DNA of 64,000 nt from assembly GCA_913063325.1 (NCBI GenBank), contig CAJXYE010000017.1, forward strand, positions 1-64,000, read 5' to 3'. The translations under genes and the position numbers were made by a program. Shown one piece after another: positions 3,323-61,396 of the stretch. Under the pieces are notes generated by a model. The model saw only the letters and a list, made by a program, of their open reading frames with translations. It made no database searches and was not told the origin of the DNA. The DNA comes from an uncultured Colwellia sp. Lineage in GTDB: Bacteria; Pseudomonadota; Gammaproteobacteria; Enterobacterales; Alteromonadaceae. Position 1 is the first letter of the stretch. Each line of letters begins with the position of its first letter.

Positions 3323-3635
3323 TATACCCATTCTACTTCAAGATGCATGGTTCAGTGGGAATTTAAAAGACTTTAGGCAAGGCATTCATTGTAAAGAATG
3401 GTTATTCCCTTCTTAAAATGAATAACGCGGCATAAAGTCTTTTAAAACCCACCCGAAGGGGAACACAGAGCAACCCCACTTTGTTGTTGCCTCCAAGGAT
3501 GGAGGTACTTAGTTTTTGCCTGGAGCAAAAAAACTGTGCACCAATTTGTAAGGGAGTGCCATGACTTCATTGGTGCGCCTAAAAGTTAAATTGCTCTGTG
3601 CTCCTGAATAAGCATCTTGAAGTAGAATGGGTATA
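3323..3635. mobile_element. Miniature inverted-repeat element A1 (313 bp)
   Basis: The ends 3323-3346 and 3612-3635 are perfect 24-bp inverted repeats (outer bases TATACCCATT, inner bases CAAGATGC). There is no transposase. An inner 11-bp inverted repeat ACACAGAGCAA / TTGCTCTGTG(C) lies around 3463-3475 and 3588-3602. The core at 3362-3447, bounded by AAAAGACTTTA and TAAAGTCTTTT, is shared with elements at 42117, 52601 and 61072. TA flanks both ends, consistent with but not proving a TA target duplication. Most of the gene-free stretch 3218-3662 is this element. Confidence 0.85.
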
Positions 3636-3662
3636 GTCGTAAGATAATAAAAAGGATAATAA

Positions 3663-4916
3663 ATGAAAGGCTTAATTAGCTTGTTATTGGTTTTAGTGTG
3701 CAATATCAGTGTTGCCGTAGAGCAAGCAGAAACCATTTTCAAACAGCATGCGCCATCTCTTTATCAAATACGTTTGATCGACAAAGCCAGTGGTGAAAAA
3801 TCTTCAATTGGTTCAGGTTTTCAAATAAGTTCCGATGGTTTAATCGCAACTAATTATCATGTTATTTCGAGCTATGCCCGCCATCCAGAGAAATACCGCA
3901 TTGAGTTTTTGGATCATCAAGGAAAGAAAGCTCATCTTGAACTAAAAAGCATCGACGTTATTAATGATTTAGCGCTAGTCAAACGAGACGTTGAGCAGGA
4001 AATGCCGTTTTTCACCATTGCCAACAGTGTGCCAACAAAAGGTGAAGAACTATATTCTCTTGGTAACCCTCATGACTTAGGGATGATTGTTGTTCCTGGT
4101 ACGTATAACGGCTTAAAAAAAGAATCTTTTAATGACCGTATTCATTTTACCGGTTCAGTGAATTCTGGCATGAGTGGTGGTCCCGTTGTTAATAAAAATT
4201 CAGATGTAGTTGGTATTAACGTGGCAACTTCAGGTAATCAAATTGGCTTTTTGGTGCCACATGATAAATTACTCGCCTTAGTTAAGGTTTATAACGAACA
4301 AAACAATTTGACTATAGATCAACAAATGGAGCAACAGCTCAATCAATATCAAAAAAACCTTATTGGTACCTTGCTCAAGAGTAACTGGCCATTAAGAAAG
4401 CTTGGTGAAGGGATGATCCCGATGATTGATGTACCCTTTATTCGTTGTTGGGGGGAATCTAACGCAGATAAATCTGATGCATTAGTGATGCTTGCTGTTG
4501 CCAATTGTTCATTAGAAGAAAACACTTATATTTCGGGCAACTTTTTTACTGGCGCCTTAGAGATGGAATTTCGTTACATGCAAGCCAAGAAATTAAGTGA
4601 TGTTAAATTTTATCAGTTATTTCAACGTCAAATTGCACGGGTAATGCCAGGTAATAAAGCAGGTAAAGATGATGTCACTGAGTTTCAATGTCAGCACGAT
4701 ATTGTGATGCCAGAAAATCAACTGATTAACAATAAAGCTATCTTATGTACTCGCGCTTACAAAGACTTTAATGACCTTTATGATGTATTGTATTTAGGCA
4801 TTTCTATTGACCGAGACGATCAAGCTTTTATCAGCCACTTCACACTTGCTGGTGTTGCTCAAAATAGCGCGCAAGCATTTACCAGCAAGTTTATGGAGTC
4901 TGTGTCATGGAAATAA
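3663..4916 (+). CDS. Secreted trypsin-like serine protease (S1, Deg-like catalytic domain)
   Basis: A 417-residue protein with an N-terminal signal peptide (MKGLISLLLVLVCNISVAVE), so probably periplasmic. The catalytic triad is visible: H66 in ATNYHVIS, D102 in NDLALVKRD and S171 in NSGMSGGPVVN. GSGF and the oxyanion-loop GMSGGP match the HtrA/Deg type S1 domain (about residues 30-215). No PDZ domain follows; residues about 225-417 form a C-terminal region I do not recognise, with six or more cysteines. The next gene, an FHA membrane protein, starts 10 bp before this stop codon, so the two are co-translated and probably act together. The substrate is unknown. Confidence 0.85.
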   Translation: MKGLISLLLVLVCNISVAVEQAETIFKQHAPSLYQIRLIDKASGEKSSIGSGFQISSDGLIATNYHVISSYARHPEKYRIEFLDHQGKKAHLELKSIDVINDLALVKRDVEQEMPFFTIANSVPTKGEELYSLGNPHDLGMIVVPGTYNGLKKESFNDRIHFTGSVNSGMSGGPVVNKNSDVVGINVATSGNQIGFLVPHDKLLALVKVYNEQNNLTIDQQMEQQLNQYQKNLIGTLLKSNWPLRKLGEGMIPMIDVPFIRCWGESNADKSDALVMLAVANCSLEENTYISGNFFTGALEMEFRYMQAKKLSDVKFYQLFQRQIARVMPGNKAGKDDVTEFQCQHDIVMPENQLINNKAILCTRAYKDFNDLYDVLYLGISIDRDDQAFISHFTLAGVAQNSAQAFTSKFMESVSWK

Positions 4917-5869
4917 TCATTGAAGAAATCAGCAGAGGACACAAACTGCTAGGTCGTCATAAATTTGCTAAACAAAGCATTAATGTCGGTCGAGGTTATC
5001 ACAGCGATATTATCCTTTCAGACCCCCATGTTTGCGCTGAGCATTTATCAATAGAGTTTGACGGTGATAATTGGCTCATTGCCGATCAAGATAGCATTAA
5101 TGGCTGCTTTTTAGATGATGGCAACAAACCGGCTAATGGTCACATTGTTCGTTCCGGCGATGTTATAACCTTAGGAAAAAGCCAGATAAGAGTAGTATTT
5201 CCTCACCACCCGGTTGAAACAAGTATTACCCTTAGCCCTTTTGAAAATTTAATTAATTTAACCAAACACCCGGTGGCACTTTTTGTAAATATCGCACTGT
5301 TTGCCATTATTACCGGCTGGATGTTTTTCTTAAATAACCCCAAAGAAGTCACCTTTACTCAGTTATTTGTCCCCTCAATAGGGTTAACATTAATGTTTGC
5401 GATTTGGCCTGCAAGCGTGGCCTTGATTTCGCATTTAACAAAACATGATGCCAGAATATTCACTCAACTTGGGCTTTGTTTTGTTTTTTATAATCTCACT
5501 TGGTTCAGTGACTTTATTGAAGCGCTAGTTAAGTTTAATACTTCAAGTCAATTTCCGCTTACCGCGTTGCTGGCTTTGTTACCTATTAGCATTGCCTTTT
5601 GCTTATTTTGGCTGAACTGCTACGTTGGTTTTCATATGAGCGGTAAACGAAGAACTGTTGTCGCTGTTTGTTTAACAACATTATTATTTGGTGGAAGTTT
5701 CTTGATTGAGATGAGTAAAAAACCAGATTTTAGTATCAGACCTCACTTTAACTCAACGTTATTAACACCAAGTTTCATGTTTGCCAAAAGCAGCAGTGTT
5801 GATGAGTTTATCGAAAACAGTAATGAGTTATTTAGCAAAGCTAAAAAAGCAGCTAAAGAGGATGAGTAG
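4907..5869 (+). CDS. FHA-domain integral membrane protein
   Basis: A 320-residue protein. Residues about 5-98 are a forkhead-associated domain: G28-R29 in INVGRGYHSD, H46 in HVCAEHLSI and N65-G66 in SINGCFLDD. The usual SRxH serine is replaced (CAEH), which may weaken phosphothreonine binding. Five hydrophobic segments follow at about 122-142, 151-176, 184-207, 217-243 and 250-268, then a charged tail. FHA domains bind phosphothreonine peptides, so this domain should face the cytoplasm. The gene overlaps the protease gene by 10 bp. I infer a membrane partner that links a cytoplasmic signal to the periplasmic protease, but this architecture is not one I recognise from a known system. Confidence 0.8.
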   Translation: MEIIIEEISRGHKLLGRHKFAKQSINVGRGYHSDIILSDPHVCAEHLSIEFDGDNWLIADQDSINGCFLDDGNKPANGHIVRSGDVITLGKSQIRVVFPHHPVETSITLSPFENLINLTKHPVALFVNIALFAIITGWMFFLNNPKEVTFTQLFVPSIGLTLMFAIWPASVALISHLTKHDARIFTQLGLCFVFYNLTWFSDFIEALVKFNTSSQFPLTALLALLPISIAFCLFWLNCYVGFHMSGKRRTVVAVCLTTLLFGGSFLIEMSKKPDFSIRPHFNSTLLTPSFMFAKSSSVDEFIENSNELFSKAKKAAKEDE

Positions 5870-5870
5870 C

Positions 5871-5897
5871 ATACTGGCTTAAAAATTAAGCCAGTAT
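5871..5897. terminator. Bidirectional hairpin terminator
   Basis: ATACTGGCTTAA-AAA-TTAAGCCAGTAT is a perfect 12-bp stem with a 3-base loop, placed between the convergent FHA gene and the solute-binding-like gene. Its last base is the first base of the latter's stop codon. There is no long T-run, so strength is uncertain. Confidence 0.7.
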
Positions 5898-6796
5898 TAA
5901 TGGGGTGTTAAGTACTTTTTCTTAGAGTAATTTTCTTTTAAATACGCTTGAAGTTTGAGCAGCTCTTTTTCGCCAAACCATTTTTTATGTGCTAGATAAT
6001 AATTTTCATTTTGATACATGGTGATGAGGGTTCGATTAATATCGTTAATGATTTTTTTACCTAATTCACCCTTAGAGCAGCTAAAATGAGCAATTAAATA
6101 AGGTGGAGCGCCTGCTATGGTATACTGTTCAAGTAAAGGTGCTTGCTGTTTAGTTGGATTCATATCGATAGGCAAAGCCAATAAAAAATCTACCCGCTTA
6201 GCATATAACATCGCTTCTAACGCCACTACTCGATTAATACCTCCACGAAAATAAATGTTATCTTGATTCACTTTAGCTATTTCACTATCCAAAAACTTAC
6301 CAAAAGACACTCCTTCAGTAACACCAAGGTTATGTGTTGGCAAGTGCTGAAAAACCGACTTAATCGAACTGATTTCGTTATCTCTCGTAAAGAGCGTTGA
6401 CGGCAAAGTGGTACTTGGGCTAAAACGAAATAATTTATGTGTCAAATAAAAAGCTTGAGGCGTTGAAAATATTGAATAGGTTTCTCTTTTGCTTAATTTT
6501 GCTCGATTAGCAACACATGCATTGTCATTCTTTTTCAATAAATAGTCGATCCGTTTTACTGATACACGTTTAAGCTTAACGTCATAATTCTTCAACTGAG
6601 CAATAATACGACTTTCTATATAAGAGGCAACTGAAGTTGTTGGCGAGGTTTGTTCTAATAAATTCTGATTTTCTTTTTTATCTTCAACAAGCCAAATAAC
6701 ATCCGTTTTCGGTTCAATGGTTGCATCGAATACAGTTGCTCTTATTGGTAAAGAAAAGAAAGTAATGATAAAAGCACTAAGTAAGTTAATGTTCAT
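5897..6796 (-). CDS. Periplasmic solute-binding-like protein
   Basis: A 299-residue protein with a signal peptide (MNINLLSAFIITFFSLPIRA). The layout resembles the bacterial extracellular solute-binding family 3 / TIGR02285-like proteins: an N-terminal lobe, YFRGGINRVVALEAMLYAKRVDFLLALP in the middle, and a C-terminal helix ending in HKKWFGEKELLKLQ. Family 3 proteins bind amino acids or similar solutes for ABC importers or act as sensors; no transporter genes are adjacent. It converges on the FHA gene and is separated from trpS by a strong hairpin, so it is a single-gene unit. The ligand is unknown. Confidence 0.6.
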   Translation of the reverse strand: MNINLLSAFIITFFSLPIRATVFDATIEPKTDVIWLVEDKKENQNLLEQTSPTTSVASYIESRIIAQLKNYDVKLKRVSVKRIDYLLKKNDNACVANRAKLSKRETYSIFSTPQAFYLTHKLFRFSPSTTLPSTLFTRDNEISSIKSVFQHLPTHNLGVTEGVSFGKFLDSEIAKVNQDNIYFRGGINRVVALEAMLYAKRVDFLLALPIDMNPTKQQAPLLEQYTIAGAPPYLIAHFSCSKGELGKKIINDINRTLITMYQNENYYLAHKKWFGEKELLKLQAYLKENYSKKKYLTPH

Positions 6797-6845
6797 TTAA
6801 TACTTTCCAATGGGCTTATCATTAAGCGTAGACAATAAACCAAAG

Positions 6846-6880
6846 TGTAGCAGGCTGAATAAGATATTCAGCCTGCTACA
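6846..6880 (-). terminator. Terminator after trpS
   Basis: A perfect 16-bp stem (TGTAGCAGGCTGAATA and its complement) with the loop AGA, 6 bp beyond the trpS stop codon. On the minus strand it is followed by a T-rich stretch (CTTTGGTTTATT). Confidence 0.8.
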
Positions 6881-6885
6881 AGTAA

Positions 6886-7890
6886 TTATGGCTTCGAAAT
6901 AAATCCAACCGCATCATAAACCGAAGTTAATATTTTACTGGCACGCTCTGATGCTTTTTCAGCACCACTGCGCATCACTTGTTCCATATAAGCTTGGTCA
7001 TTACGGTATTGATGATACTTCTCTTGAATAGGCTCAAGCATTGATACTACAGCATCAGCCACATCACCTTTTAAATGACCGTACATTTTATCTTCATATT
7101 GCGGCACTAACTGTTCTACTGTTTGACCGGTAGTACAAGACAATAAAGACAATAAGTTTGAAACACCCGGCTTCTCAGCTACATCAAAGTAAATGCGCGC
7201 TTGTTCGTCTGAATCAGTCACGGCACGTTTAATCTTCTTAGTGATTTTTTTCGGCTCTTCTAACAAACCAATAAAATTGCTTGGGTTGGTATCAGACTTT
7301 GACATTTTTTTGGTCGGCTCTTGTAAGCTCATCACCCGCGCACCAAATTCAGGAATATAAGGCTCAGGTACGACAAAAACATCACCATAAAGATTATTGA
7401 ATCGGGTGGCAATATCACGGGCTAACTCTAAGTGCTGCTTTTGGTCATCACCAACTGGCACACGATCCGCACGGTATAATAGAATATCAGCCGCCATCAA
7501 TACCGGATAAGTAAATAAGCCTGAGTTCATATTCGCTTCTGACTTTTGCGATTTATCTTTATATTGAGTCATGCGATTTAACTCGCCCATTTGGGTATAA
7601 CAATTTAATACCCAACTTAACTGTGCATGCTCTGGTACATGAGACTGAATAAATATAGTGCTTTGCTCTGGGTCAACACCACATGCAAGATATAAAGCTA
7701 AACCATCGAGTGTAGCTTTACGAAGGGCTTCAGGTTCAGGACGAACAGTAATGGCATGTTGATCAACCAACATATAATAGCAATTATGGCTATCTTGCAT
7801 ATTAACCCACTGCTTAAGTGCGCCTAAATAGTTGCCGATAGTTAATTCGCCCGATGGCTGACAGCCACTTAATACAACAGGTTTACTCAT
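6886..7890 (-). CDS. trpS: Tryptophan--tRNA ligase
   Basis: A 334-residue cytoplasmic class Ic synthetase that charges tRNA-Trp. The HIGH-like motif is in [12 protein letters not shown] (residues 12-23), the KMSKS motif is at 195-199, and [19 protein letters not shown] is typical of TrpRS. Length is normal for the family. It lies 60 bp downstream of rpe on the same strand, as in the dam-rpe-gph-trpS cluster of other gammaproteobacteria, but no gph lies between them here. A strong hairpin at 6846-6880 ends the unit. Confidence 0.97.
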
Positions 7891-7950
7891 GATATTTTTA
7901 CCTAATAACTCTATATAAATGTTAAAAACTGATTTATCTTCAATTCTTGA

Positions 7951-8625
7951 TTAATTTTTTACCGTTGCAAGTTGCTCACGCATCTCGTCAATCGCTTGTT
8001 TATAGTCTGGTTTTGAGAAAATCGCTGAGCCAGCAACAAACATATCAGCCCCAGCCGCGGCTATTTCAGCAATATTATCGGCTTTGACACCGCCATCCAC
8101 TTGTAAACGAATATCATAACCACTGGCATCAATTTTCTCGCGGACTAATTTTAGTTTATCCAATGTCGTTGGAATAAATGACTGCCCACCAAAACCTGGA
8201 TTTACTGACATCAGTAATATGACATCAAGCTTATCCATAACAAAATCTAAGCAATGCAACGGCGTTGCAGGGTTTAATACTAAACCTGCTTTACAGCCAT
8301 GATCTTTGATAAGCTGCAATGTTCTATCGATATGATCACTGCCTTCCGGATGAAAGGTAATAATATCAGCTCCTGCTTTTGCAAACCCAGGAATAAGACT
8401 ATCAACAGGCTTTACCATTAAATGTACGTCAATCGGCGCGGTTATACCGTAATCTCGAAGCGACTGACATATCATTGGGCCAAACGTTAAGTTAGGAACA
8501 AAGTGGTTGTCCATAACATCAAAATGAACAACGTCGGCACCCGCGGCTAGCACGTTAGCGACATCGTCACCTAAACGAGCAAAATCTGCAGATAATATTG
8601 AAGGAGCAATTAAATATTGAGACAT
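7951..8625 (-). CDS. rpe: Ribulose-phosphate 3-epimerase
   Basis: A 224-residue TIM-barrel enzyme that interconverts ribulose-5-phosphate and xylulose-5-phosphate in the pentose phosphate and Calvin pathways. Visible motifs are [14 protein letters not shown] at the N-terminus, [18 protein letters not shown] with the metal-binding His and Asp, [14 protein letters not shown], and [27 protein letters not shown] in the phosphate-binding region. Length is normal. It is upstream of trpS in what looks like one operon; dam, its usual upstream neighbour, is 6 kb away beyond accessory genes. Confidence 0.97.
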
Positions 8626-8895
8626 GATTTGATCTTCGCGAGTTAAAAACAGCGCTACTTTACCCTAAAATTGCCAATTAATCGACCACCAATGCGTTGC
8701 ACTTTTTTTGCACAATCAAATAATTACTTGCACCACGATCGCTCACCTTATCAAAATAAAAAATATAGCCCCTTCTTTCGCTCGACGCCAACCAATTGAA
8801 AATAAACAAATAAATATAATTTTTTTCGTTTGAGAGATAACAGGCATCTTCTTTGCAATTTCAAAACTAACAACAATAAACTTAATGAGTAATAC

Positions 8896-9567
8896 ATGAA
8901 AAATACACTACTAAAAATCGCTCTTGCTTCAACACTGTTAACTGCCTCTGTTACTTCTTTTAATGCTTCTGCTGATGGTCTTGCTGGCGTTGAAGGTTTA
9001 AGTGGTAATGCCGCTGTGGTATCACAATACTTTTTCCGCGGTATTGCACAAACAACAACGGCTTCAGCTAGCGGTGGTTTTGATTATGAAAAAGGCGGTT
9101 TTTACGCTGGTACATGGGCTGCCGACGTACAAGACGGTATTGAAGTAGATTTTTATGCTGGCTACGGCATAGAAACAGAAAGTGGTCTTAGTTTAGGTGC
9201 TGGTTTTACTACTTATCAATATACTGGTGGTTTTGATTCTGCTTATAATGAAATTAACCTAAGTGCTGGCTACGGCATATTTTCACTTGGTTATAACGTA
9301 GGTACTCACGAAGAAGATAAAGGCTTAGGAATCGATGAAGCCGATTATGACTTTCTTTCTGTAACAGTAGAAGCCGAGTCAGGACTTTATGCTACTTTTG
9401 GTACTTGGGGCAAAGACTTCTCAGGTGATTATGTAGAAGTTGGTTACGGTACTTCTGTAGGTGGTTTTGACCTTGGTGTTGCGTTAATCTCTAACGATGA
9501 AGATTTAGATCTTGAAACTGGTGCTGGTGATGAATCATTGGTATTTAGTATTGCTGCTTCATTCTAA
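8896..9567 (+). CDS. TorF-family putative outer-membrane porin
   Basis: A 223-residue protein with a signal peptide cleaved near SFNASA. The sequence alternates short amphipathic strands rich in Gly, Tyr and acidic residues (FYAGTWAADVQDGIEVDFYA, then LGYNVGTHEED) and ends in a terminal Phe, as beta-barrels do. The opening VSQYFFRGIAQTTTASASGG matches the TorF/TIGR02001 family, whose transport role is poorly defined. It is transcribed alone, divergent from rpe, with its own terminator at 9575-9609. The 270 bp upstream is AT-rich and contains no other gene. Confidence 0.75.
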   Translation: MKNTLLKIALASTLLTASVTSFNASADGLAGVEGLSGNAAVVSQYFFRGIAQTTTASASGGFDYEKGGFYAGTWAADVQDGIEVDFYAGYGIETESGLSLGAGFTTYQYTGGFDSAYNEINLSAGYGIFSLGYNVGTHEEDKGLGIDEADYDFLSVTVEAESGLYATFGTWGKDFSGDYVEVGYGTSVGGFDLGVALISNDEDLDLETGAGDESLVFSIAASF

Positions 9568-9574
9568 TACCATT

Positions 9575-9609
9575 TTCACTAGCAGCGGTAAAAATCCGTT
9601 GCTAGTGAA
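9575..9609 (+). terminator. Terminator after the TorF-like gene
   Basis: A 14-bp stem with one G-T wobble (TTCACTAGCAGCGG pairing with CCGTTGCTAGTGAA) around the loop TAAAAAT, just past the stop codon. Confidence 0.7.
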
Positions 9610-9679
9610 CTCTCTTAAACTGTTCCCTCTGAATTTTTACCTCTAAACTTTTACCTCTAAAATAATACAATTTTCTTCA

Positions 9680-12806: not shown

Positions 12807-12914
12807 TGTATTTTCCAAAGTTTAAGTAAGAAACTAAGGAAACTATGACAGCCTAAAAATAGAAGGTCGTCTCAGCCAATGCAATGAGACTTAAAATAGA
12901 AAATTTAATAAAAC

Positions 12915-14081: not shown

Positions 14082-14250
14082 GGGGTTATAATTTAATAAG
14101 TTCGCCTAAATGAGAATAGTATACTTAATTCGTTTAGAGATGTTTGATTTCAGTGGAAATAAATTGATTCAAATTGCTATGATATTTTAGTTTTAACCAA
14201 GTCTGTCTCTTGATAAAATTAACTTCATCGATAAGCGAAATGATCATACC

Positions 14251-14478
14251 ATGTCAAAAAAAGAGCAAAATAGCCCCAAAGATACTGCTGAAGAAAGCTT
14301 TTCTATTAAAAATGTTATTGGCAGCGTTGCCGCCGCTTTTTTAGGCGTGCAGAGTAATAAAAATAGAGAGAAGGATTTTACTAAAGGAAAGTTTAGTCAC
14401 TTCGTTATTGTTGGTTTAATTGCTGTGATGTTATTTATTGGTGGATTAGTTACTGTTGTCTCTTTGGTGTTACCTTAA
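14251..14478 (+). CDS. DUF2970-family small membrane protein
   Basis: A 75-residue protein: a polar N-terminus, then SFSIKNVIGSVAAAFLGVQS, NREKDFTKG, and a C-terminal transmembrane helix (about residues 50-73). The VIGSVAAAFLGVQSxxNREKDF pattern is typical of DUF2970 proteins in gammaproteobacteria, which have no known function. It is divergent from the AraC-type gene and convergent with dam. Confidence 0.8.
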   Translation: MSKKEQNSPKDTAEESFSIKNVIGSVAAAFLGVQSNKNREKDFTKGKFSHFVIVGLIAVMLFIGGLVTVVSLVLP

Positions 14479-14479
14479 G

Positions 14480-14498: not shown

Positions 14499-14546
14499 AA
14501 ATGCCAGAGCTTTTTATCATTGATGACAACAATTAATTTTTACGCT

Positions 14547-41042: not shown

Positions 41043-42128
41043 ATGAAAACTTCACAAGAATTGACCAGTGATCAGGCATTTAACCGCCGGGTCATTGATA
41101 TTTCCATTAAACTATCCGCCATGGCAATGATCATGCTCTGGTGTTTCTCCATTATTAGGCCCTTTATATTAATTACTGTTTGGGCTGCTATTTTAGCTGT
41201 TGCTTTATACCCTTTACATGAAAAACTGACCGCGCTACTTAAGGGTAATAAAAAACTCGCCTCAACTATTGTTGCCCTTGTCGGCATATCAATTATCGCC
41301 ATCCCATCCATTAACCTTTCTTCATCTGCCATTGATTCTGCTCAGCATGTTTACAATGGTATTGAAGATGGCACCTTAAAAATCCCAGCCGCTGATGAAA
41401 GCGTTAAAGAATGGCCTCTGGTGGGTGAAAAACTGTTTAACCTTTGGCAAGATGCTTCACAAGACATCCAAAAAGTTGCAGGACAATACCCTGAACAATT
41501 AAAATCACTTTCAAGCACTTTATTATCTGCAGTAGCTGGTATTGGTGGTGGTATTCTACAATTTATCGTTTCATTAATTATTGCCGTAGTTTTTATGGCC
41601 AAGTCAGCATCTTTACATCTAGGTGTTAGTAAATTAATGCGTCGCTTAATGAATGATTCGGGCGATAGAACCATTAGTACCACTATTGCTACTATTCGTA
41701 GTGTTGCCACTGGCGTACTAGGCGTTGCAGTTATTCAATCACTCTTGTCTGGTGTTGGTTTAATGATTGCTGATATTCCCGGTGCTGGTATTTGGGCTAT
41801 CGCCGTGCTTATTTTAGCAATAGCACAATTACCACCAATACTAATTTTAGGCCCTGTCGCAGCGTATTACTTCTCTGTAGCAGACACCACACCAGCCATT
41901 GCCTTTTTAATCTTTAGTATTATTGTAAGTGCAAGTGACGCTTTCTTAAAGCCACTGTTTTTAGGTCGTGGTATGAGCATCCCTATGATAGTTATTTTAC
42001 TCGGTGCTATTGGCGGCATGCTACTTTCAGGTATTATTGGCTTGTTTGTTGGCGCCGTAGTCTTAGCATTAGGTTACGAATTACTGATGGACTGGCTAAG
42101 TCATACACCAGATGTTATACCAAGTTGA
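41043..42128 (+). CDS. AI-2E family (PerM-like) permease
   Basis: A 361-residue inner-membrane protein with about eight TM helices: pairs at about 20-60 and 70-90, a hydrophilic helix region 95-155, then helices at 160-185, 215-250, 255-290 and 310-350. GAGIWAIAVLILAIAQLPPILILGP and SDAFLKPLFLGRGMSIPMIVILLGAIGG are the conserved AI-2E blocks. Family members have been linked to AI-2 export or Na+/H+ antiport. The last three codons and the TGA lie within mobile element B1 (from 42117), so the original C-terminus may have been replaced. AAGGAAG precedes the start. Confidence 0.85.
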   Translation: MKTSQELTSDQAFNRRVIDISIKLSAMAMIMLWCFSIIRPFILITVWAAILAVALYPLHEKLTALLKGNKKLASTIVALVGISIIAIPSINLSSSAIDSAQHVYNGIEDGTLKIPAADESVKEWPLVGEKLFNLWQDASQDIQKVAGQYPEQLKSLSSTLLSAVAGIGGGILQFIVSLIIAVVFMAKSASLHLGVSKLMRRLMNDSGDRTISTTIATIRSVATGVLGVAVIQSLLSGVGLMIADIPGAGIWAIAVLILAIAQLPPILILGPVAAYYFSVADTTPAIAFLIFSIIVSASDAFLKPLFLGRGMSIPMIVILLGAIGGMLLSGIIGLFVGAVVLALGYELLMDWLSHTPDVIPS

Positions 42129-42380
42129 TTAAGTTCTTTCCCACTCAGCGAGAATTAAAAGGCTTAAAGGCAAGGCATTGATTGATGAGAATGGTTATTC
42201 CCTTCTCGAAATCAATAACGCTGCATATAAGCCTTTTAAACTCGCCCTTGGGAGCTCATTGATAAACTGATAACGTCACAAAATTAACTAAATATAGAAT
42301 GACTATGTTTAATAAATTTTGTTTGTTCTAAGCTCATCAATGTAGCTCTGAGTAGGGAAGAAATTTAATCAAATTGGTAT
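42117..42380. mobile_element. Miniature inverted-repeat element B1 (264 bp)
   Basis: The ends begin ATACCAA(G/T)TTGATTAA and the terminal inverted repeat continues, imperfectly, for over 30 bp (42117-42155 against 42344-42380). TTA flanks both sides of TACCAA...TTGGTA. The core at 42153-42240 is shared with A1, A2 and B2. TAGAATGACTA at 42295-42305 is the reverse complement of the 11-mer in element C and B2. The element overlaps the last 12 bases of the AI-2E permease gene. No transposase is present. Confidence 0.8.
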
Positions 42381-42441
42381 TATAGTTGAAGACAAAGAGG
42401 CTGAGGCTCAACAGAGCTAACATCCTTATCTGTACAATATA

Positions 42442-52600: not shown

Positions 52601-52916
52601 TATACCCAAGTAACTTGAAGATGCTCGTTTCAGGATGCCAGAGCTAATCATGACCAAGACGTCTATTTTTATTAATGGTTATTCTGGAGAATTACATCTC
52701 CTGCATTCTCTAATAAGCTACATCCATGTAGCGCCCTTAAAAAGGGGACAACGAAGTACATGGTTAGCTCAGACATCCCCGCAGGGCTGTTTTAAAAACG
52801 ATTTATACAGCGTTATTGATTTCGACAATGGAACAACCATTCTCTTCAATCAAAGCCTTGTCTAAATACGTTTTTAATTCCAGCTGAATCCGGTATCTTT
52901 ATGTTGCTTGGGTATA
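52601..52916. mobile_element. Miniature inverted-repeat element A2 (316 bp)
   Basis: The ends read TATACCCAAG(T/C)AAC at 52601 and its inverted form ...TGCTTGGGTATA at 52916, a terminal inverted repeat of about 24 bp with a few mismatches, related to A1. TA flanks both ends. The core lies on the minus strand at 52789-52880. A second module at 52675-52738 is shared with B2 (61261-61326). A 76-codon frame across the element has no family resemblance. Confidence 0.82.
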
Positions 52917-53004
52917 TAAACACAAACGAAATAACAAGGAAACGCTACTAAGATCAGCTATAAGCTTGCTATAATTATCATGAATGTCATTCTTGATGAT
53001 TTCA

Positions 53005-53016
53005 TGAAAACTTTCA
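53005..53016. promoter_or_regulatory. Cra/FruR-like operator upstream of fbp
   Basis: TGAAAACTTTCA is identical to the site before pckA (26375-26386) and matches 10 of 12 bases of the Cra consensus. It lies 86 bp before the fbp start codon and is itself enclosed by TGTCATT (52985-52991) and AATGACA (53022-53028), which are complementary. The binding protein is inferred. Confidence 0.6.
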
Positions 53017-53102
53017 CCCGTAATGACAAGCTACGGTGTGCCATTATTCTTGGCACATTTTATAAAGCATATAATTAACTTTAAAGTATTTTAGGTAACC
53101 TA

Positions 53103-54071
53103 ATGCAACGACTAGCCCCAGCTTTACGTCAAGACAACGTACCTCTTGATTTAATTTCATTAATAAAAACTATTTTAGCTGCCACGAAAGAAATTTCATT
53201 TCGTGTTAGCCAAGGCCACTTAGGTGACGTAATGGGCTCAACCCTTGATGAAAACATTCAAGGCGAAGTTCAGAAACAATTAGATGTCGTTGCCAATGAG
53301 CTATTCAAAGATATTTTACTTGAGTCTGGTTTTGTAAAGGCTATTTCATCAGAAGAAGAAGACCACTCAGTTGCTGGTAATGAAAACGGCAAATATATCG
53401 TTTCTTTTGATCCTCTTGATGGTAGTTCAAACATAGACATCAATTCATTGATTGGTACTATCTTCTCAATTCATGAAGCTCCTGAAGATATCGCGGCTGG
53501 TGATGATGATATGTTCAAACAAACAGGTAACAGCCAAGTATGTGCAGGTTATGTGCTTTATGGCCCATCAACTATGTTAGTCATGACAACAGGTATTGGC
53601 ACGCACTTTTATGTATTAGACAGAACCCATGGCGGTTTCTTATTGGTAGAGCGTAATGTACAAGTCCCTGTTGATACGCAAGAGTTTGCCGTTAATATGT
53701 CTAACCAGCGTTTTTGGCAGGCACCTATGCAAAATTACATAGACGATCTACTTGCAGGTGATACTGGCCCACGTGGTAAAAACTTCAATATGCGTTGGAT
53801 AGCTGCCATGGTCGGTGATATTCATCGTGTATTATGTCGTGGTGGTATCTTTACTTATCCTGCAGATAGCAGAAAGCCTGAGCAACCATACAAACTACGT
53901 TTAATGTATGAAGCTAACCCAATGGCATTTTTACTTGAACAAGCTGGCGGTTTAGCAATGACTAGCCAAGGCCGCATTATGGATATAGAGCCAGAAAGTA
54001 TCCATCAACGTGTTGAAGTGATTATGGGCTCTAAAAACGAAGTTGAGAAATGCTTAAGCTACTATAAATAA
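53103..54071 (+). CDS. fbp: Fructose-1,6-bisphosphatase class I
   Basis: A 322-residue cytoplasmic enzyme that hydrolyses fructose-1,6-bisphosphate to fructose-6-phosphate in gluconeogenesis. SSEEEDHSV and [24 protein letters not shown] carry the metal and phosphate ligands, and RYIGSMVGDIHR-like [14 protein letters not shown] and [20 protein letters not shown] close the active site. Length is slightly below the 332 residues of E. coli. It has its own operator-like site and terminator, so it is a single-gene unit. Confidence 0.97.
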
Positions 54072-54102
54072 GCTTACCAACAAAATTAACCCCATAAAAA
54101 CT

Positions 54103-54138
54103 AAAAAGGCTTATTGTTTTAAACAATAAGCCTTTTTT
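54103..54138. terminator. Strong terminator between fbp and the DUF945 gene
   Basis: A perfect 17-bp stem (AAAAAGGCTTATTGTTT and its complement) with a 1-base loop as written, so the actual loop opens a few pairs, followed by a T-run. It can act in both directions between convergent genes. Confidence 0.9.
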
Positions 54139-54193
54139 ATAGGTGTACGTTTAGCTCAATCAAATTAAGTTAAACAGACAAAGTTCTTTAACC

Positions 54194-55483
54194 TTATAAC
54201 TGAAATGCTTTACCATTAACAGTTAACTGGTTTTCTAGATATTTAGCTTCAAAGCTAATGTTATTATCTTGCTTACTTAAGTAACCTTGTTCAACAAAGC
54301 TATTAACCATAGGCGCCATGCCTAACTTAGTCAGGAATGCTATTGGCGCTTTCCCCTTAGCATCAGCTTCCAATGCCATAATAAAAGCCATTGAATTGAC
54401 GTTACTCATATCGAATAAATCTTTATTGATAGTAAAGTTAAGCTCGCTGGCAATCTTTCCTTCATCTGTGACAATACTTAAATCAGTGACTTTTAAGCTT
54501 GGGTTATTAGCTAATACCTTTTCAGCTACCGCAGATAAGGCTTGTAAAATTTCTTCTGAGCTAGCTGAATCTAAAGCGTTAACTGGCATGTTAGCCATAG
54601 TAGTGTTCAACTCTTGCAGGGCATGAATGTCAATATTAGCTAACACAATATCTAAATTTGGTTTTTCAAAATTCTGGCCAGAAGCGCTAATACTTTTAGC
54701 ATAATAACTTAACGTTAGCGCTAATAAATTATTGTCTAATGAAACGGTTGTTGTGAGTCCGGCACCATGCAACGAAAAAACGTGACTAGCCTGGCTATAC
54801 ATATCTATTTTTTCTACAATAAAACTCGCATCACCCGTTAAAATTGCTGTACCTTGTAAGTAGTCACCACTAACCACCTTTTGTTCCGTTGACATTGCAA
54901 CCTTACCAAGAACAAAACGCTCACCTAACTCTTCAAATTTAAGACCACCCCATGAGAAATCTCCAGCAATACTCGCATTATCGGTTAAGGTAAATTGAGC
55001 TGAGGCTGGTGCAGAAACAAGTGTAGACTCCCCATCTTGATAGCTCATTTCATCCGTTTTAATAAAACTGGTGACATCTTTATTGAAACTTAGCAAGGCG
55101 CCAAGGTGAATTTTTTCATTAATCAGCTTAATAATTTCTTCATCAACTTCAACGGCAGAAAATTTAAATTTTACTGCTGAATAACCTAAACCTAAATGCC
55201 AACCTTGTGAGGTAATAATGACAGGTCCGAAAGTAAGCTCTTCTTCTAACGATAGCGTTATATCAGTTAAACCATCCTCTTCAAGTGCAATGGTTAATTC
55301 TGAGGTCACATCAGCGCCAAACCAACCCGTGTGATATTGACTGGTGGTTAAGGTAATACCGTCAGTTTCATTAAGGTTTACCAATACCTTCTCGCGTTCA
55401 CTTTCAACCATAGCGCCAATAAATTTTGGCGCAATAAGTAAACTTGCTAGGATTAAACCTACGGCAATAGACAGATTTTTCAT
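54194..55483 (-). CDS. DUF945 (YdgA-like) family protein
   Basis: A 429-residue protein with an N-terminal signal anchor (about residues 4-24). The body is repeated beta-sheet rich sequence with short helices, including LTTSQYHTGWFGADVTSELTIAL near 40-62 and the C-terminal KLGMAPMVNSFVEQGYLSKQ. This is the layout of DUF945/YdgA proteins, conserved but poorly characterised periplasmic proteins of gammaproteobacteria. It follows rlmB after 38 bp on the same strand and could share its transcript. Confidence 0.78.
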   Translation of the reverse strand: MKNLSIAVGLILASLLIAPKFIGAMVESEREKVLVNLNETDGITLTTSQYHTGWFGADVTSELTIALEEDGLTDITLSLEEELTFGPVIITSQGWHLGLGYSAVKFKFSAVEVDEEIIKLINEKIHLGALLSFNKDVTSFIKTDEMSYQDGESTLVSAPASAQFTLTDNASIAGDFSWGGLKFEELGERFVLGKVAMSTEQKVVSGDYLQGTAILTGDASFIVEKIDMYSQASHVFSLHGAGLTTTVSLDNNLLALTLSYYAKSISASGQNFEKPNLDIVLANIDIHALQELNTTMANMPVNALDSASSEEILQALSAVAEKVLANNPSLKVTDLSIVTDEGKIASELNFTINKDLFDMSNVNSMAFIMALEADAKGKAPIAFLTKLGMAPMVNSFVEQGYLSKQDNNISFEAKYLENQLTVNGKAFQL

Positions 55484-55521
55484 TTTAAAAATTCCCTTTT
55501 TTATAAATCATATACTCAAGA

Positions 55522-56277
55522 TTAGATTGAGCGTTGGCGCACCATTTCAAATAAACAAATACCTGTTGCCACTGATACATTTAAGCTTGAAACAGTTCCT
55601 GCCATAGGAAGCTTAACTAATTGATCACAGTTTTCACGGGTTAATCGACGCATGCCTCTTCCTTCAGCGCCCATAACGAGTGCCATCGGTCCAGCCAATT
55701 TAACATCATACAAACAAGTATCTGTCTCACCGGCTGTTCCAACAATCCATACACCTTGTTTTTGAAGCTGTTTCATTGTTCGTGATAAGTTAGTTACTTG
55801 CACTAAAGGTACGCTTTCAACAGCTCCTACCGCAACTTTACGCACAGTAGGGGTAATTTGTGCAGCATTATCTTTTGGCACTATGATGGCTTGTACCCCA
55901 GCCGCATCAGCGTTACGTAAACAAGCACCTAGATTATGAGGATCAGTAACACCGTCTAAAATTAGAAAAAATGCAGGGTTACCTTTTTTTTCTGCTGCAA
56001 GAATGATGTCATCAATATCATTTTCTGTATAACTTTTCCCTGGTCTTACACGGGCAATTACGCCTTGGTGTTGCTCACCTTCACTTTTTTCATCAAGCGC
56101 TTTACGACTCGCCAATTGTGTCCCGATACCGTATTTTCTTGATAAATTAATGATTGGCATTATGCGGTCATCTTCACGACCTTTTAATAACCATATTTCA
56201 ATAAAACGCTCAGGTGCTGCGTCCATTAAGGCATTAACTGCATGAATACCAAAAACTAACTCTTCATTTTTCGCCAT
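55522..56277 (-). CDS. rlmB: 23S rRNA (guanosine-2'-O)-methyltransferase RlmB
   Basis: A 251-residue SPOUT methyltransferase that modifies G2251 of 23S rRNA in E. coli. The N-terminal L30e-like domain starts [24 protein letters not shown]. The knotted domain has [62 protein letters not shown] and [20 protein letters not shown]. It lies about 100 bp after rnr, the order conserved in gammaproteobacteria. Confidence 0.97.
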
Positions 56278-56376
56278 GATCTTTCTCTATTTTATATGAA
56301 CAACAGGCTGACAAGCCTTGTATTTAGCCAAGCTACTTGAATTTAAATCTTCAGGTCTCTTAGTTATAACTATTAT

Positions 56377-58845
56377 TTAAGTACTGTCTTTCGAACTTTT
56401 GCGCGCATTTTTACCCGGGCGTTTTTTACGTGCACTGCGCTTTTTCGCTTTACTCTTTTCTTTTGGCTTATCTTTAGAACCACCTTTGGGTTTACTTTTA
56501 GGTTTGTCTTTTTTAGCTGTCGCTGCTTGAGTTCCAGTTTTAGCTTCTGACTTAGCATCAGCTGATTTTGACGTTGAGCGTCTTGCGCTTGTGCCTTTTG
56601 ACTTCCCTTTAGGTTTGCCTTTAGATTTCCCTTGTTTTTCTTCTACTTCAATGCCTTCAAGTCGTAAATCTATTTTCTTTTCATCAAGATTTACTGCAGC
56701 AACTTGAACCCGAATTTCATCACCAACGCGATATTTCTTACCACTATTTTCACCGGTAAGACACATACGTACATCATCAAAATGATAAAAATCACGACCA
56801 AGAGAAGTAATGTGAACTAAACCTTCAATATGCAAATCTTGTAAGCGAACAAACATGCCAAAATTAGTGACTGTTGAAATAACGCCAGTGAAATTATCAC
56901 CAACATGGTCCTGCATAAACTCACACTTGAGCCAATCAGCAACATCACGAGTTGCTTCATCTGCACGTCGCTCTGTCATTGAGCAATGCTCACCTAACTC
57001 AACAACTTCTTGTAAGGCATAATCATAACTACCTTCGTTAGCATCATTTTTAGCTTCTTTTTCAAGAATTGCTTTAATTACGCGATGCACCACTAAATCA
57101 GGATAGCGGCGAATAGGTGAAGTAAAATGGCTGTATGAAGGAAGCGCTAAACCGAAATGACCTTCATTATCACTTTGATAGACCGCTTGACGCATTGAGC
57201 GTAACAACATGGTTTGAATCAGCTCTTGATCAGGACGACCCGCAACTCTGGCTAGAATATCACCATAATCTCTTGGCTCTGGTGCTTCTTTCGATGGTAG
57301 TGACAAACCAAGTTCATTTAAATAGGTGACAAAATTACGGTACTTATCTTCATTTGGTTTTTCATGAACACGGAACAATCCTGGTTTTTCATGTTTTTCA
57401 ATAAATTTAGCTGTCGCGACATTGGCCAAAATCATACATTCTTCAATGATTTTATGGGCATCATTACGAATGAGTGGCACAACACCGGAGATCTTCTTAT
57501 TTTCATTAAAAAGAAAAATAGATTCTTGTGTTTCAAATGCGATAGCGCCACGTTTAAGGCGAGCATCGGTTAGTGCATGATACATTTGTTCAAGGTTTTT
57601 TAAATCAGGCACCAAAGGTTGGTATTCTTGACATAGCGCTTCATCACCATCAAGAATGGCAGCCACTTTAGTGTAAGTAAAACGAGCATGAGAACGCATT
57701 ACTGCCGGATAAAATTTACTGCCCGTTAGTTTACCTTTCGCACTAACCGTCATTTCACAGACCATACAGAGACGATCTACATCAGGATTTAATGAACAAA
57801 GGCCATTAGAAAGTTTCTCTGGCAACATAGGAATAACTTGGCTGGGAAAATACACCGAGTTACCACGAGATATAGCTTCATCATCTAAAGCTGTGCCGTG
57901 TTGAACATAATAGCTCACATCAGCAATGGCAACCCATAAACGCCAACCGCCTGATTTTTTGGCTTCACAATAAACAGCATCATCAAAGTCTCGCGCATCA
58001 TCGCCATCAATAGTAACCAATGGTAGGTCACGTAAATCTTTACGTGGTAATTTAGCTGACTCTTCAACTTCATCAGCAATGCCAGCCACTTCAGCTTGTA
58101 CTGCGTGAGAAAATTGATGTGGTAAGTCATGAGCGCGTAAGGCTATTTCAATTTCCATTCCAGGCGCTAGGTGATCTCCTAAAACTTCGATAACCTTACC
58201 AATAGCATGAGAGCGTTTGGTCGGTCTTTGTACTAATTCCACCACCACCATTTGACCGTGACGAGCACCCATTTTTGTTTGTGGATCAATCAGTACTTCT
58301 TGTTTTATTTTACTGTCTTCTGAAACCACTGAACAAACATGATGATCGACATATAATCGACCAACTATTGGGGCTTTTCTTGGTTCAATCACTTCAATTA
58401 TTTTGACTTCTTTACGGCCTTTACGATCAGTACGGTCAACCAAAATAGCTTGCACTATATCTCCATGAAAAACACGCTGCATCTCATGCGAGGAGATATA
58501 AAAATCTTTGCCTCTTTTATCAGTAATCGATGAGTCATCAGGAGAAAAGAAACCAAAACCGTCACGATGGCCAATAACTTTGCCGGTAAGCAGGCTATTT
58601 TTTTCCGGTAAGGCGTATTGTTTGAATTTATTAAAGATCAACTGACCACTGTTTTCCATGGCGCGCAAACGACGTTTCAAACCAATAAGCTGATATTCTT
58701 CATCATACTTAAGAGTTTTGACCATTGTATTGAAGCTTGGTGGTGGCGAGCATTTTTCGATGATTGATAGCAATAATTCGCGTGAGGCGACTGGCTTCTC
58801 ATATTTTTTGGCTTCGCGTTTAGCGTGTGGATCGTTATAGGTCAC
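56377..58845 (-). CDS. rnr: Ribonuclease R
   Basis: An 822-residue 3'-5' exoribonuclease that degrades structured RNA. Domains: an N-terminal helix-turn-helix (about 20-85), two cold-shock domains (about 85-245), the RNB catalytic domain (about 265-600) with DDARDFDDAVYCE carrying the catalytic Asp cluster and SHFTSPIRRYPDLVVHR, then S1 (about 650-735) and a very basic lysine/serine-rich tail from about 740. Such tails vary in length and help binding. RNase R is important at low temperature, which fits a cold-water host. It is upstream of rlmB and downstream of motX. Confidence 0.96.
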   Translation of the reverse strand: MTYNDPHAKREAKKYEKPVASRELLLSIIEKCSPPPSFNTMVKTLKYDEEYQLIGLKRRLRAMENSGQLIFNKFKQYALPEKNSLLTGKVIGHRDGFGFFSPDDSSITDKRGKDFYISSHEMQRVFHGDIVQAILVDRTDRKGRKEVKIIEVIEPRKAPIVGRLYVDHHVCSVVSEDSKIKQEVLIDPQTKMGARHGQMVVVELVQRPTKRSHAIGKVIEVLGDHLAPGMEIEIALRAHDLPHQFSHAVQAEVAGIADEVEESAKLPRKDLRDLPLVTIDGDDARDFDDAVYCEAKKSGGWRLWVAIADVSYYVQHGTALDDEAISRGNSVYFPSQVIPMLPEKLSNGLCSLNPDVDRLCMVCEMTVSAKGKLTGSKFYPAVMRSHARFTYTKVAAILDGDEALCQEYQPLVPDLKNLEQMYHALTDARLKRGAIAFETQESIFLFNENKKISGVVPLIRNDAHKIIEECMILANVATAKFIEKHEKPGLFRVHEKPNEDKYRNFVTYLNELGLSLPSKEAPEPRDYGDILARVAGRPDQELIQTMLLRSMRQAVYQSDNEGHFGLALPSYSHFTSPIRRYPDLVVHRVIKAILEKEAKNDANEGSYDYALQEVVELGEHCSMTERRADEATRDVADWLKCEFMQDHVGDNFTGVISTVTNFGMFVRLQDLHIEGLVHITSLGRDFYHFDDVRMCLTGENSGKKYRVGDEIRVQVAAVNLDEKKIDLRLEGIEVEEKQGKSKGKPKGKSKGTSARRSTSKSADAKSEAKTGTQAATAKKDKPKSKPKGGSKDKPKEKSKAKKRSARKKRPGKNARKSSKDST

Positions 58846-58922
58846 TATAATGGGTCAGTATTTAAGGAAAACTACCTGCAAGTATACCATAAACTTGTTA
58901 TTTACTGCGCTAAGGCTATCGC

Positions 58923-59549
58923 TTAATTTGTGTAACTATTTCTTTTCGCTTGCTCTATGACTTTACTTGGCATTTTACTGGCAAGATCTAAAAGTAAGCC
59001 ACTGATTTTTTTGTGTATTACTTTATCTTCGGTTAAAGAGTGATGTAATTGAGAATACAATGCAGGGTAGTCTAACGGGCTGCCATAACCTTCTTCATAG
59101 ATATCAGCTAGTCGCATTTGCGCGGGTAAATTATTTAAACTCGCCGCCGTTTTTAAATAAACAATGGCGCGGTCAATATCTATTTGCATAAATTTACCAA
59201 TATGATAATAACGCCCTAGCTGCTCTAATCCCTCAGCTAAGCCCTGGTCGGCAGCTAAGTGCATGTAATGTAAACCTAGCGGAACGTCTTTTTTAACACA
59301 AACACCATAAGCTAACATATCACCCCATAAATATTGATACGAAGGCATATTAGCTTTATTCGCACGTGCTTCTATATCCTGCACTAACTGGCATTCATCA
59401 AGTACTACTTGGCTTAAATGCTTGTTGTCTTTAATCAGATCAAGCAATTGGTTATCAGTGTAAATCTGCACGGCTTGCATGTTTTGCTTTAGGGCGAATG
59501 CTGAAGAACAAGTAAATAAAAAAACAAAAAACAAAGGCAATATACGCAT
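58923..59549 (-). CDS. motX: Sodium-driven polar flagellar motor protein MotX
   Basis: A 208-residue secreted protein (signal peptide ending SAFA, about residue 19) with Sel1-type repeats: AAxxGLAEGLEQLGRYYHIGKF and AASLNNLPAQMRLADIYEEGYG. Two cysteines occur at DECQL and YGVCVKK. Together with the location immediately upstream of rnr-rlmB, as in Vibrio and Shewanella, this identifies MotX, a T-ring component that holds the PomA/PomB stator. No other motility gene is in the window. Without the synteny it would be called only a Sel1-repeat protein. Confidence 0.85.
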   Translation of the reverse strand: MRILPLFFVFLFTCSSAFALKQNMQAVQIYTDNQLLDLIKDNKHLSQVVLDECQLVQDIEARANKANMPSYQYLWGDMLAYGVCVKKDVPLGLHYMHLAADQGLAEGLEQLGRYYHIGKFMQIDIDRAIVYLKTAASLNNLPAQMRLADIYEEGYGSPLDYPALYSQLHHSLTEDKVIHKKISGLLLDLASKMPSKVIEQAKRNSYTN

Positions 59550-59799
59550 AACAATCCTAACTTGGCTGAATCAGTTGACTCTCCTGTATCGGCAATCAAA
59601 CTGCATTGATGAGAGTTATTTAAAAATGATGTATATTTTAAAGCAATTTTAACGCCAACATAAAATTTTAAAGCTATAATGAAATTGAATTATACATTCA
59701 TTATAGCTACTCTTATTTATCGCAGACTCGCAAGAGTAAAAAAATTACATATTTTAATGAATGATTAGAGTATTAACCCCTTAATAATGGCGTTTTTTC
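59550..59799. other. Intergenic region between motX and HD-GYP gene
   Basis: A 250-bp divergent region, AT-rich. It must contain both promoters. No repeat, terminator or small gene stands out. Confidence 0.5.
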
Positions 59800-60969
59800 A
59801 TGCTAATTGAAAAAGATCTTTCAGAGTTAACTATTGGACACTATGTAGTAAAGATCATTCAGCAAGAAGGTAATTGCTCTTTGATTGAATCTGGAAATAT
59901 AAAAAGTAAATCAGTTATTGACCTTCTCAAGAGAAAAAATGTTTACCGTGTTTTAATTGATGATAGTAAAACACTCATAACGAGCAAGATAACCGATAAC
60001 ACTGATTCAACTAGCAACTCAGCTGTTAACCGAGAGAACCTTAAGCAAGCAAAGGCAATTTTTGACCAGTCTAAATCTATTCAAAAAAAGCTATTCAGTG
60101 ATGCACTCAGTGGTAGTAGTTTAGACTTATCACCCGTTGTTGAAGTAACCAATAAATCTATTGATGCAATATTTAACAGCCCAGACTCACTTGCCTGTAT
60201 GCTAAACATTCGTGAAAAAGATGAGTATTTATTAGAGCACTCTGTTGCCGTTTCTGTCTATATCACTATTTTTGCGCGTTATTTGGGTTTAACAAGGGAT
60301 ATTATTGAACAACTCTCGATTGGAGCATTTCTGCATGATATAGGTAAGATAAAAATACCTGATAAAATCCTTAATAAACCGGGTAAATTAACTGATGATG
60401 AATTTACCATCATGAAAACACATGCAAATCATTCTATAAACATCATTACACAAACCCCTGGAATTAGTTCACTTAGTCTTGAAGTGGCTGCCCTGCACCA
60501 TGAGAAGCTCAATGGCTGTGGTTATCCTTTTCAATTAAAAGCAGAAGATATCAATCAATATGGTCGAATGATTGCTATTTGTGATATTTTTGACGCGTTA
60601 ACAGCCACCCGTGTTTATAAAGAAGGTTTTGCTCATGGTAAAGCTTTTGCTATTTTACGGGAATTGGCAAAACAAGAACAACTAGACTCCCGGTTGGTTG
60701 ACCAATTTATTAAATGTGTAGGTGTATTTCCCGTTGGCTCATTAGTACAGTTAAAGTCAAACAAATTAGCATTAGTTAAAGTTCGTAATGATGAAGATCC
60801 AACAAACCCACAAGTTCACTCTTTTTATAACGTACAACTAAGCCAGTTCCACAATAAACAAGAAATTGACTTATCATGCTGTGAAGACTCCATTTTAAAA
60901 GGGGTCAGAGCAGAAGAGTTTGATCTTGATATGAATACCATTGTTGAAATGTTGTTGATGGAGGGTTAA
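59800..60969 (+). CDS. HD-GYP domain protein, likely c-di-GMP phosphodiesterase
   Basis: A 389-residue cytoplasmic protein with an N-terminal DUF3391-like domain (about 1-125) and an HD-GYP domain (about 130-300). H147 in LLEHSVAV, H179-D180 in FLHDIGKIKIP, H208 in MKTHANHS and HHEKLNGCGYP at 233-243 are the metal and signature residues. The signature has Cys at 240 where Ser/Thr is usual. Active HD-GYP proteins degrade cyclic di-GMP and thereby favour motility over biofilm. It is divergent from motX. The C-terminal 75 residues (LVQLKSNKLALVKV onward) are typical of the group. Confidence 0.9.
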   Translation: MLIEKDLSELTIGHYVVKIIQQEGNCSLIESGNIKSKSVIDLLKRKNVYRVLIDDSKTLITSKITDNTDSTSNSAVNRENLKQAKAIFDQSKSIQKKLFSDALSGSSLDLSPVVEVTNKSIDAIFNSPDSLACMLNIREKDEYLLEHSVAVSVYITIFARYLGLTRDIIEQLSIGAFLHDIGKIKIPDKILNKPGKLTDDEFTIMKTHANHSINIITQTPGISSLSLEVAALHHEKLNGCGYPFQLKAEDINQYGRMIAICDIFDALTATRVYKEGFAHGKAFAILRELAKQEQLDSRLVDQFIKCVGVFPVGSLVQLKSNKLALVKVRNDEDPTNPQVHSFYNVQLSQFHNKQEIDLSCCEDSILKGVRAEEFDLDMNTIVEMLLMEG

Positions 60970-61071
60970 TAAATTTAGCTAGAAATACATAACTCAATGA
61001 GAATAAAACCCCATTAAGCTATGTGTTAGACCATTCCATCTAAGCTTTGAAATTACACCAAGTAAAGACTT

Positions 61072-61396
61072 ATACCAATTTGATTAAATTTCTTCCCAAC
61101 TCAGAGTTATGCTCGATGTTCAATAACAAGGAAAATTTGTTTCGGTCTAGTCATTCTAAATCAAATAAATTTAACGACGTTAGTGGATATCGAGCAAGCT
61201 CCCAAAGGGCGAGTACCTAATAAAAGGCAAAGGCTTACATGCGGCGTTATTGATTTTGATAAGGACGCTACAAGGATGTAGCTTCTTAGAGAATGCAGGA
61301 GCTTATTCTCCTGAATAACCATTATCTTCTATCAATGCCTTGCCTCTAAGCCTTTTAATTCTCGCTGAGTGGGAAAGAACTTAATCAACTTGGTAT
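61072..61396. mobile_element. Miniature inverted-repeat element B2 (325 bp)
   Basis: The terminal inverted repeats start ATACCAA(T/G)TTGATTAA and extend about 35 bp with mismatches. TTA flanks TACCAA...TTGGTA on both sides, as for B1. The core is on the minus strand, split into 61220-61260 and 61316-61361 by the module 61261-61326, which A2 also carries. TAGTCATTCTA is at 61148-61158. The last base of the element is the first base of the RND gene stop codon. No transposase is encoded. Confidence 0.82.

Follow-up and report, generated by a model that had tools for sequence, protein, structure and literature searches.

A 64,000-nucleotide stretch of the genome of an uncultured marine Colwellia sp. 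(contig CAJXYE010000017.1, positions 1 to 64,000; hereafter the window) contains four short repeats, A1, B1, A2 and B2, that combine one shared core with either of two kinds of transposon end. As read from the sequence, this combination suggests a single transposase-less element served by two machines. The repeats are likely to be non-autonomous miniature inverted-repeat transposable elements (MITEs) of the IS630 world, with ends recognised by two groups of IS630 insertion sequences (ISs) and a core that is probably a passenger movable by both groups. A preliminary description of the window had already proposed two end types on one core, and that distinction has been strengthened: A and B ends differ in sequence, in the flanking duplication and in the IS630 group that shares them.

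Each element encodes no transposase and has, between inverted ends, a hairpin core followed by another hairpin arm in inverted orientation. In the mechanism we propose, A ends would be recognised by an IS630 transposase group with TA as its insertion site and B ends by another whose site is TWA (3 bp), and the ends and flanks point to movement of the MITEs in trans by these ISs. Recombination may have given the core lineage its second end type, or that type may have arisen as ends and transposases diverged together; occasional end swaps may have followed through recombination in the shared core.

Anatomy and spread of the elements

All four repeats in the window are complete elements. The A-type elements A1 (3324-3634, plus strand, 311 bp) and A2 (52602-52915, minus strand, 314 bp) are flanked by TA (3323-3324 and 3634-3635 in A1), and A1 has ATACCC...GGGTAT ends that form a 24-bp perfect inverted repeat. 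The B-type elements B1 (42117-42380, plus strand, 264 bp) and B2 (61072-61396, minus strand, 325 bp) carry TTA (42115-42117 and 42380-42382) and TAA (61396-61398 and 61070-61072), respectively, on both sides. The layout runs from imperfect inverted ends of ~28 bp through TCAG or TTAG into the core; the preliminary description had recognised the two types of end motif and had drawn the ends too short. Across both types, 109 of 127 copies have ATACC at a constant distance from TCAG or TTAG, and seven more deviate by at most four bases.

Together these parts form a terminal stem with two hairpin arms, of which the shared core is the left one. As folded, the core spans 3351-3457 in A1 (plus strand, -37.6 kcal/mol, z -5.67), 42146-42251 in B1 (plus strand, -41 kcal/mol, z -6.21) and 52783-52888 in A2 (minus strand, -31.8 kcal/mol, z -5.04). 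Another hairpin, inverted relative to the first, is formed by the right half (42252-42348, plus strand, in B1), so the single pair of arms proposed earlier has to be replaced by two arms. In window comparisons, core similarity is 83.5% over 97 bp between A1 and B1 (E 1.6e-21), 76% over 130 bp between A1 and A2 (E 2.4e-19) and 95% over 84 bp between B1 and B2 (E 4.6e-34). The similarity that the preliminary description had seen did not drop to chance level; indeed, chance is ruled out by these E values and by the genome-wide counts against controls given below. The description had also assigned all four repeats a core of ~85 bp. The core is shared by all four, and in B2 (61220-61361, minus strand) it is broken by an extra module after GGTTATTC, with an altered 3' arm. 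We further note that this module of ~50 bp lies in the loop (61260-61324) and has a relative in the right half of A2 (52673-52739).

The four elements are among more than 100 copies in their genome. There, a left-core pattern with up to three mismatches gave 122 matches (reversed-pattern control, 0), and a right-core pattern with up to two mismatches gave 129 (control, 2). Core matches are found in all 39 Colwellia genomes searched, at 1 to 172 per genome, and among 274 genomes sampled evenly from the class the core is present in two, the window's own among them. Among the matches listed, named records with the core are mostly Colwellia, along with Thalassotalea, Pseudoalteromonas, Shewanella, unclassified Alteromonadaceae and one record named Endozoicomonas. 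Since identical cores were collapsed into one before the count (197 matches to 146 distinct), the youngest copies, for instance L002 and L003 with 99-100% identity to B1, are under-counted. The 146 distinct matches were reduced to 128 by score and start filters, to 121 that were readable and to 111 that passed the end filter, the right end of each copy being the best match chosen.

At least 18 of 28 end positions are complementary, with a TAT or TAA terminus, in 111 of the 121 readable copies. Most elements measure 262-276 or 310-325 bp, around two peaks near 264 and 312 bp; a few copies measure only 156-176 bp, and many longer ones hold an extra module inside an arm's loop. A long loop of the kind seen in B2 occurs in 25 of 108 left arms, with both end types. 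The longest closed ATG open reading frame (ORF) inside an element has a median of 25 amino acids in A and 26.5 in B, with maxima of 76 and 53. Short, present in more than 100 copies and without an encoded transposase, the elements agree with MITEs in these properties. A known Rfam family was considered and rejected, as a scan of the window gave no match at gathering scores.

Two end types and the insertion sequences that share them

The 111 copies with both ends comprise 56 A, 52 B and three others. Among B copies the flanking 3-mers are identical in 37 of 52 (TAA 19, TTA 18), against 19.2 expected from re-paired flanks; among A copies they are identical in two of 56. Similarly, in 128 copies from other records, identical 3-mers flank 40 of 67 B copies (20.3 expected) and two of 58 A copies; these 128 remained after 53 of 181 matches were dropped (24 with no right end, 13 with no ATACC, 10 with a late start and six duplicates). 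B1 is missing in the aligned relatives L348, L351, L354 and L355, and this absence together with the identical TWA flanks identifies a duplicated target site for the B type; the A type has TA flanks only.

Both kinds of end are also found on autonomous elements in other Colwellia genomes. PF13358 (DDE_3) has matches in 14 of the 39 genomes, and both IS ends could be read at 16 of the 30 loci returned, giving 5 A-ended and 11 B-ended ISs. Profiles of the MITE ends sort all 16, the interrupted L444 included, without overlap: A-ended ISs score between +20 and +32 with the A profile and at most -11 with the B profile, and B-ended ISs between +16 and +34 with the B profile and at most -20 with the A profile. 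By their flanks, the A-ended ISs represent three separate insertions (L415 and L416 alike; L417 and L418 alike; L429), all three between TA and TA. The B-ended ISs are 1094 to 1116 bp long, eight of the 11 come from one genome (G022), and two overlapping ORFs are present in both of those examined. With L444 left out, six of ten have identical TAA or TTA flanks, and TA/TA flanks are seen in one (L438). L444 itself measures 1727 bp between its B ends, against 1094 in others, and is apparently a B-ended IS interrupted by other sequence. A separate search of 414 loci and the window (1.73 Mb) for matching ends 700-3500 bp apart gave eight spans, none with an obvious transposase by eye.

All five IS ORFs that were tested are IS630-like. 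The A-ended L415 can be assigned to the IS630 DDE_3 transposases (PF13358, 3.6e-37; NF033545, 227.5 bits). The paired ORFs of B-ended ISs score 147.9 and 100.1 bits in L434 and 148.7 and 97.3 bits in L424, the last value being below the 100-bit cut-off. Protein identity is 35% over 71 amino acids between A and B and 68% over 182 between B and B. Searched with a core profile up to E = 10, the 16 ISs gave nothing. The core was therefore rejected as a piece of these ISs, and it did not arrive with ends from such ISs.

Several observations weigh against mobilisation by these two IS630 groups. For 14 of the 30 IS loci both ends could not be established (fragments, contig ends or ISs in which the second end could not be placed), and four of the ten B-ended ISs have flanks other than identical 3-mers (TAA/TTA, TGA/TCA, TTA/TAA and TAA/TTA). 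TA/TA flanks occur in 43 of the 56 A copies, exactly as often as in re-paired flanks (43.0), and are alone uninformative; a search with the A1 flank, which matches a repeated cluster, found no empty site for the A type. PF13358 finds nothing at E <= 1e-10 in the draft genome (87.6% complete) to which the window belongs, nor in G010, a single contig where the core matches 138 times, nor in G003, G008 and G012, with 90, 113 and 124 cores; G022, with 12 PF13358 matches, has nine cores. Copy number thus does not follow the ISs, a mismatch that fits past bursts and also an undetected transposase. Finally, the conserved ATACC and its constant spacing in both end types fit plain divergence as well as they fit the capture of new ends.

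Shared descent of core and ends and the fold of the arms

Plain divergence is the closest competitor of our explanation, and we hold it only slightly more doubtful than probable. It would make the elements a single ancient MITE family in which the ends grew different along with two diverging IS630 lineages, with an inherited, functionless core and with mixed copies produced by ordinary homologous recombination. The two accounts are compatible and invoke the same machinery; they differ on the origin of the second end type. The constant placement of ATACC relative to TCAG agrees with divergence, as do ends with letters between the A and B types, such as ATACTCATG. Further agreement comes from a tree of 108 left arms over 102 columns, few for that number of rows, in which end type splits the cores on a branch with 100/92 support: 46 A copies fall on one side, and 55 B, four A-star (ATACT) and three A copies on the other. 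The absence of the core from the 16 ISs and the lack of overlap between A and B profiles on these ISs speak against divergence alone, and the paired stem changes described below require some further process.

The preliminary description had named A and B ends proving to be one divergent family as an outcome that would overturn it. One undivided end family is ruled out by the differing flanks and by the separation of the end profiles on the ISs; since ATACC and its distance from TCAG are preserved in A and B alike, the whole element may have had an ancient common origin.

Five changes among the three end labels are needed on the core tree, which suggests that core and ends have mostly been inherited together and that exchanges were rare. 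Recombination between families, as put forward in the preliminary description, is supported in a minority of copies. Seven A-ended copies lie inside the B core clade; two of them, L153 and L021, sit on a long branch and have different outer arms, the arm classes being crude patterns under which some arms are misnamed. Flanks are TA/TA in four of these seven copies and an identical 3-mer in one, so flanks tend to follow ends. L070, which failed the end filter and is absent from the tree, joins a B left end and arm to an A right half and end; its flanks fit neither rule, and it is as expected from recombination or from an assembly join. A Photobacterium replicon (L445) has A ends with a B-like outer arm, and a mixture of end and core is therefore not limited to Colwellia.

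There is also a bolder form of the passenger idea, which we consider rather improbable. In this form the core itself would be what is passed on, as a structured module derived from neither IS and wearing whichever IS630 ends are currently served; it would switch between TA- and TWA-cutting transposases through core recombination, across Alteromonadales and into Vibrionaceae.

The preliminary description had also suggested that the core, not the ends, is what is maintained, and paired changes in the stem are consistent with this. Across 80 distinct aligned left arms, both sides have changed in 23 of 36 stem pairs, and 278 cells are changed on both sides against 21-47 with slid partners; the slid control is the fairer one, as relatedness inflates the shuffle control, and the structure was taken from B1, itself in the alignment. 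The 80 arms come from 83 listed (L030, L012 and L021:1643-1748 were omitted), and L171, L043 and L059 lack the 3' core motif used for cutting left arms. Whole elements fold stably as well (z -11.53 for B1 and -7.00 for A2). Complementary arms, as described earlier, pair in A1, B1 and A2, and the literal letters AAAAGGCTTA/TAAGCCTTTT are confined to B1 and, in part, B2. In A1 and A2 the letters differ yet pair (AAAAGACTTT/AAAGTCTTTT and AAAAACGTATTT/AAATCGTTTTT), which indicates that pairing is conserved and not letters. We infer that the fold is under some constraint.

Such paired changes could also arise without selection, by template-switch correction of imperfect palindromes during replication. 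The fold would then be functionless, and the same process would equalise left and right ends within a copy. Although we do not favour this account, it is a real possibility. The two ends do agree within a copy: at A positions 7-11 the agreement is 0.786, against 0.436 between copies and a maximum of 0.546 in 2000 permutations, a value somewhat inflated by the best-match choice of right ends, which the permutation does not remove. Strand tests for an RNA role had a mixed outcome: left-arm cells hold G-U 83 times and A-C 23 times (18 positions against six), and when only strand-neutral pairs are considered there is no significant excess of G-U over A-C in five of six stem sets, which agrees with palindrome correction. 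Orientation relative to neighbouring genes, read with a rough ORF caller in 101 copies (34 in divergent and 13 in convergent settings), likewise has no bias, with 25 sense and 29 antisense. Against correction stand the strand-neutral pairs of the B left arm, where G-U exceeds A-C at 11 positions and the reverse never occurs, and the letters AAGGC, AACG and GGTT, which lie outside the paired changes, are kept in most copies and are not explained by it.

An RNA role, in which folded transcripts of the arms would alter the stability or termination of neighbouring messages, as described for ERIC in Yersinia (PMC10969869, PMC2229807, as far as consulted), so that insertions are tolerable and the fold is preserved, is unlikely: stable folds such as that of whole B1 and fold energies that favour the arm's own strand in two of four arm sets agree with it, but the antisense strand folds better in 36 of 52 whole B elements, gene orientation is unbiased, the strand test is mostly null and the window has no Rfam match.

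Relation to known repeats and genomic setting

The closest known repeats include ERIC/IRU/MITEPlu5, which in the sources consulted are likewise short, mostly intergenic and present in many copies, with TATACC- or TATACT-type ends, a TA target and a strong fold. TATACCC-type ends combined with a TA target are found in the A type only; B-type ends and TWA flanks are absent from those ERIC descriptions. ERIC is also smaller, with 127 bp and one arm, whereas the Colwellia elements have 264 or 312 bp and two arms. A single E. coli ERIC locus, represented by L411 and again by L412-L414, contains AAGGC..AACGCNGC as the cores do, an agreement reached in three of 5000 shuffles with a motif picked after seeing both. 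Aligned over their whole length, the elements resemble ERIC only weakly (z 2.0 to 4.2 for ten elements; -0.6 to 4.0 for the inner part alone). We therefore claim no membership of ERIC, and from their sequence the elements are ERIC-like, no more.

ERIC, too, is a MITE, and a link between MITEs and IS630 has been described before. MITEPlu5, tied to CCC-type IS630 ends (PMC6267812), and RUP are MITEs linked to IS630 with insertion at TA, and the RUP of pneumococcus is held to be mobilised by IS630-Spn1, at TA (PMC2229807). As far as described there, RUP has a single end type, and the Colwellia elements have two. Their ends, and mostly their flanks, match the A- and B-ended DDE_3 ISs of Colwellia; unlike IS630 itself they lack a transposase, and the TWA of the B group differs from the TA usually described. 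Duplications other than TA have precedent within the IS630-Tc1-mariner group, where the portions consulted report TAA in most Fot and TATA in most Sailor elements (PMC7386202, PMC8533490); Fot/pogo and Sailor provide a parallel for the B type. In the titles and abstract openings of the open-access papers listed, we found no description of these Colwellia elements or of a bacterial IS630 with TWA duplications.

B1 lies at the end of an AI-2E family transporter gene (PF01594; 41043-42128, plus strand), whose last codons are now inside the element and read ...HTPDVIPS before the stop; the relative L348 ends in ...HTPDSKESDSEVQQS and a stop. The reading frame does not show that TTA stood only once at B1, as a 3-bp copy preserves the frame either way. 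At B2, the flanking TAA at 61396-61398 doubles as the stop codon of an upstream AcrB-family ORF (61396-63978). A weak B-end match at 14155 in the window was dismissed as an element by its fold (z -0.09).

Other repeats were seen alongside these elements. The window's genome holds a third family (L383-L389, L381, L382 and L405) of ~159 bp, single-armed and with B-type ends. Its right end closely resembles the right end of the B-ended ISs (GTGATCT), AAGGC..AACGC is present in five of ten copies examined, and identical TWA flanks are present in four of the six with both ends. Two 44-bp near-palindromes (L399, 469-512; L400, 549-592) consist of two A ends and nothing else, and L398 has a 105-bp remnant. 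B ends occur within about 80 bases of contig ends in G000 (for example C7, C25, C34, C47 and C63), as if near-identical copies had broken the assembly. Three related direct repeats of ~94 bp (454-547, 1988-2081 and 2810-2903) lie in a cluster that has matches in many Colwellia genomes, and the third overlaps a YjbR-like ORF.

With two candidate IS630 groups named, each with distinct ends and flanking duplications, the mobilisation of an ERIC-like element in trans becomes directly testable. If a bacterial IS630 group does duplicate TWA (3 bp), the TA rule found in the literature consulted would be widened. If the core has indeed outlived its ends, it would show clearly how a non-autonomous element can pass from one host transposon to another.

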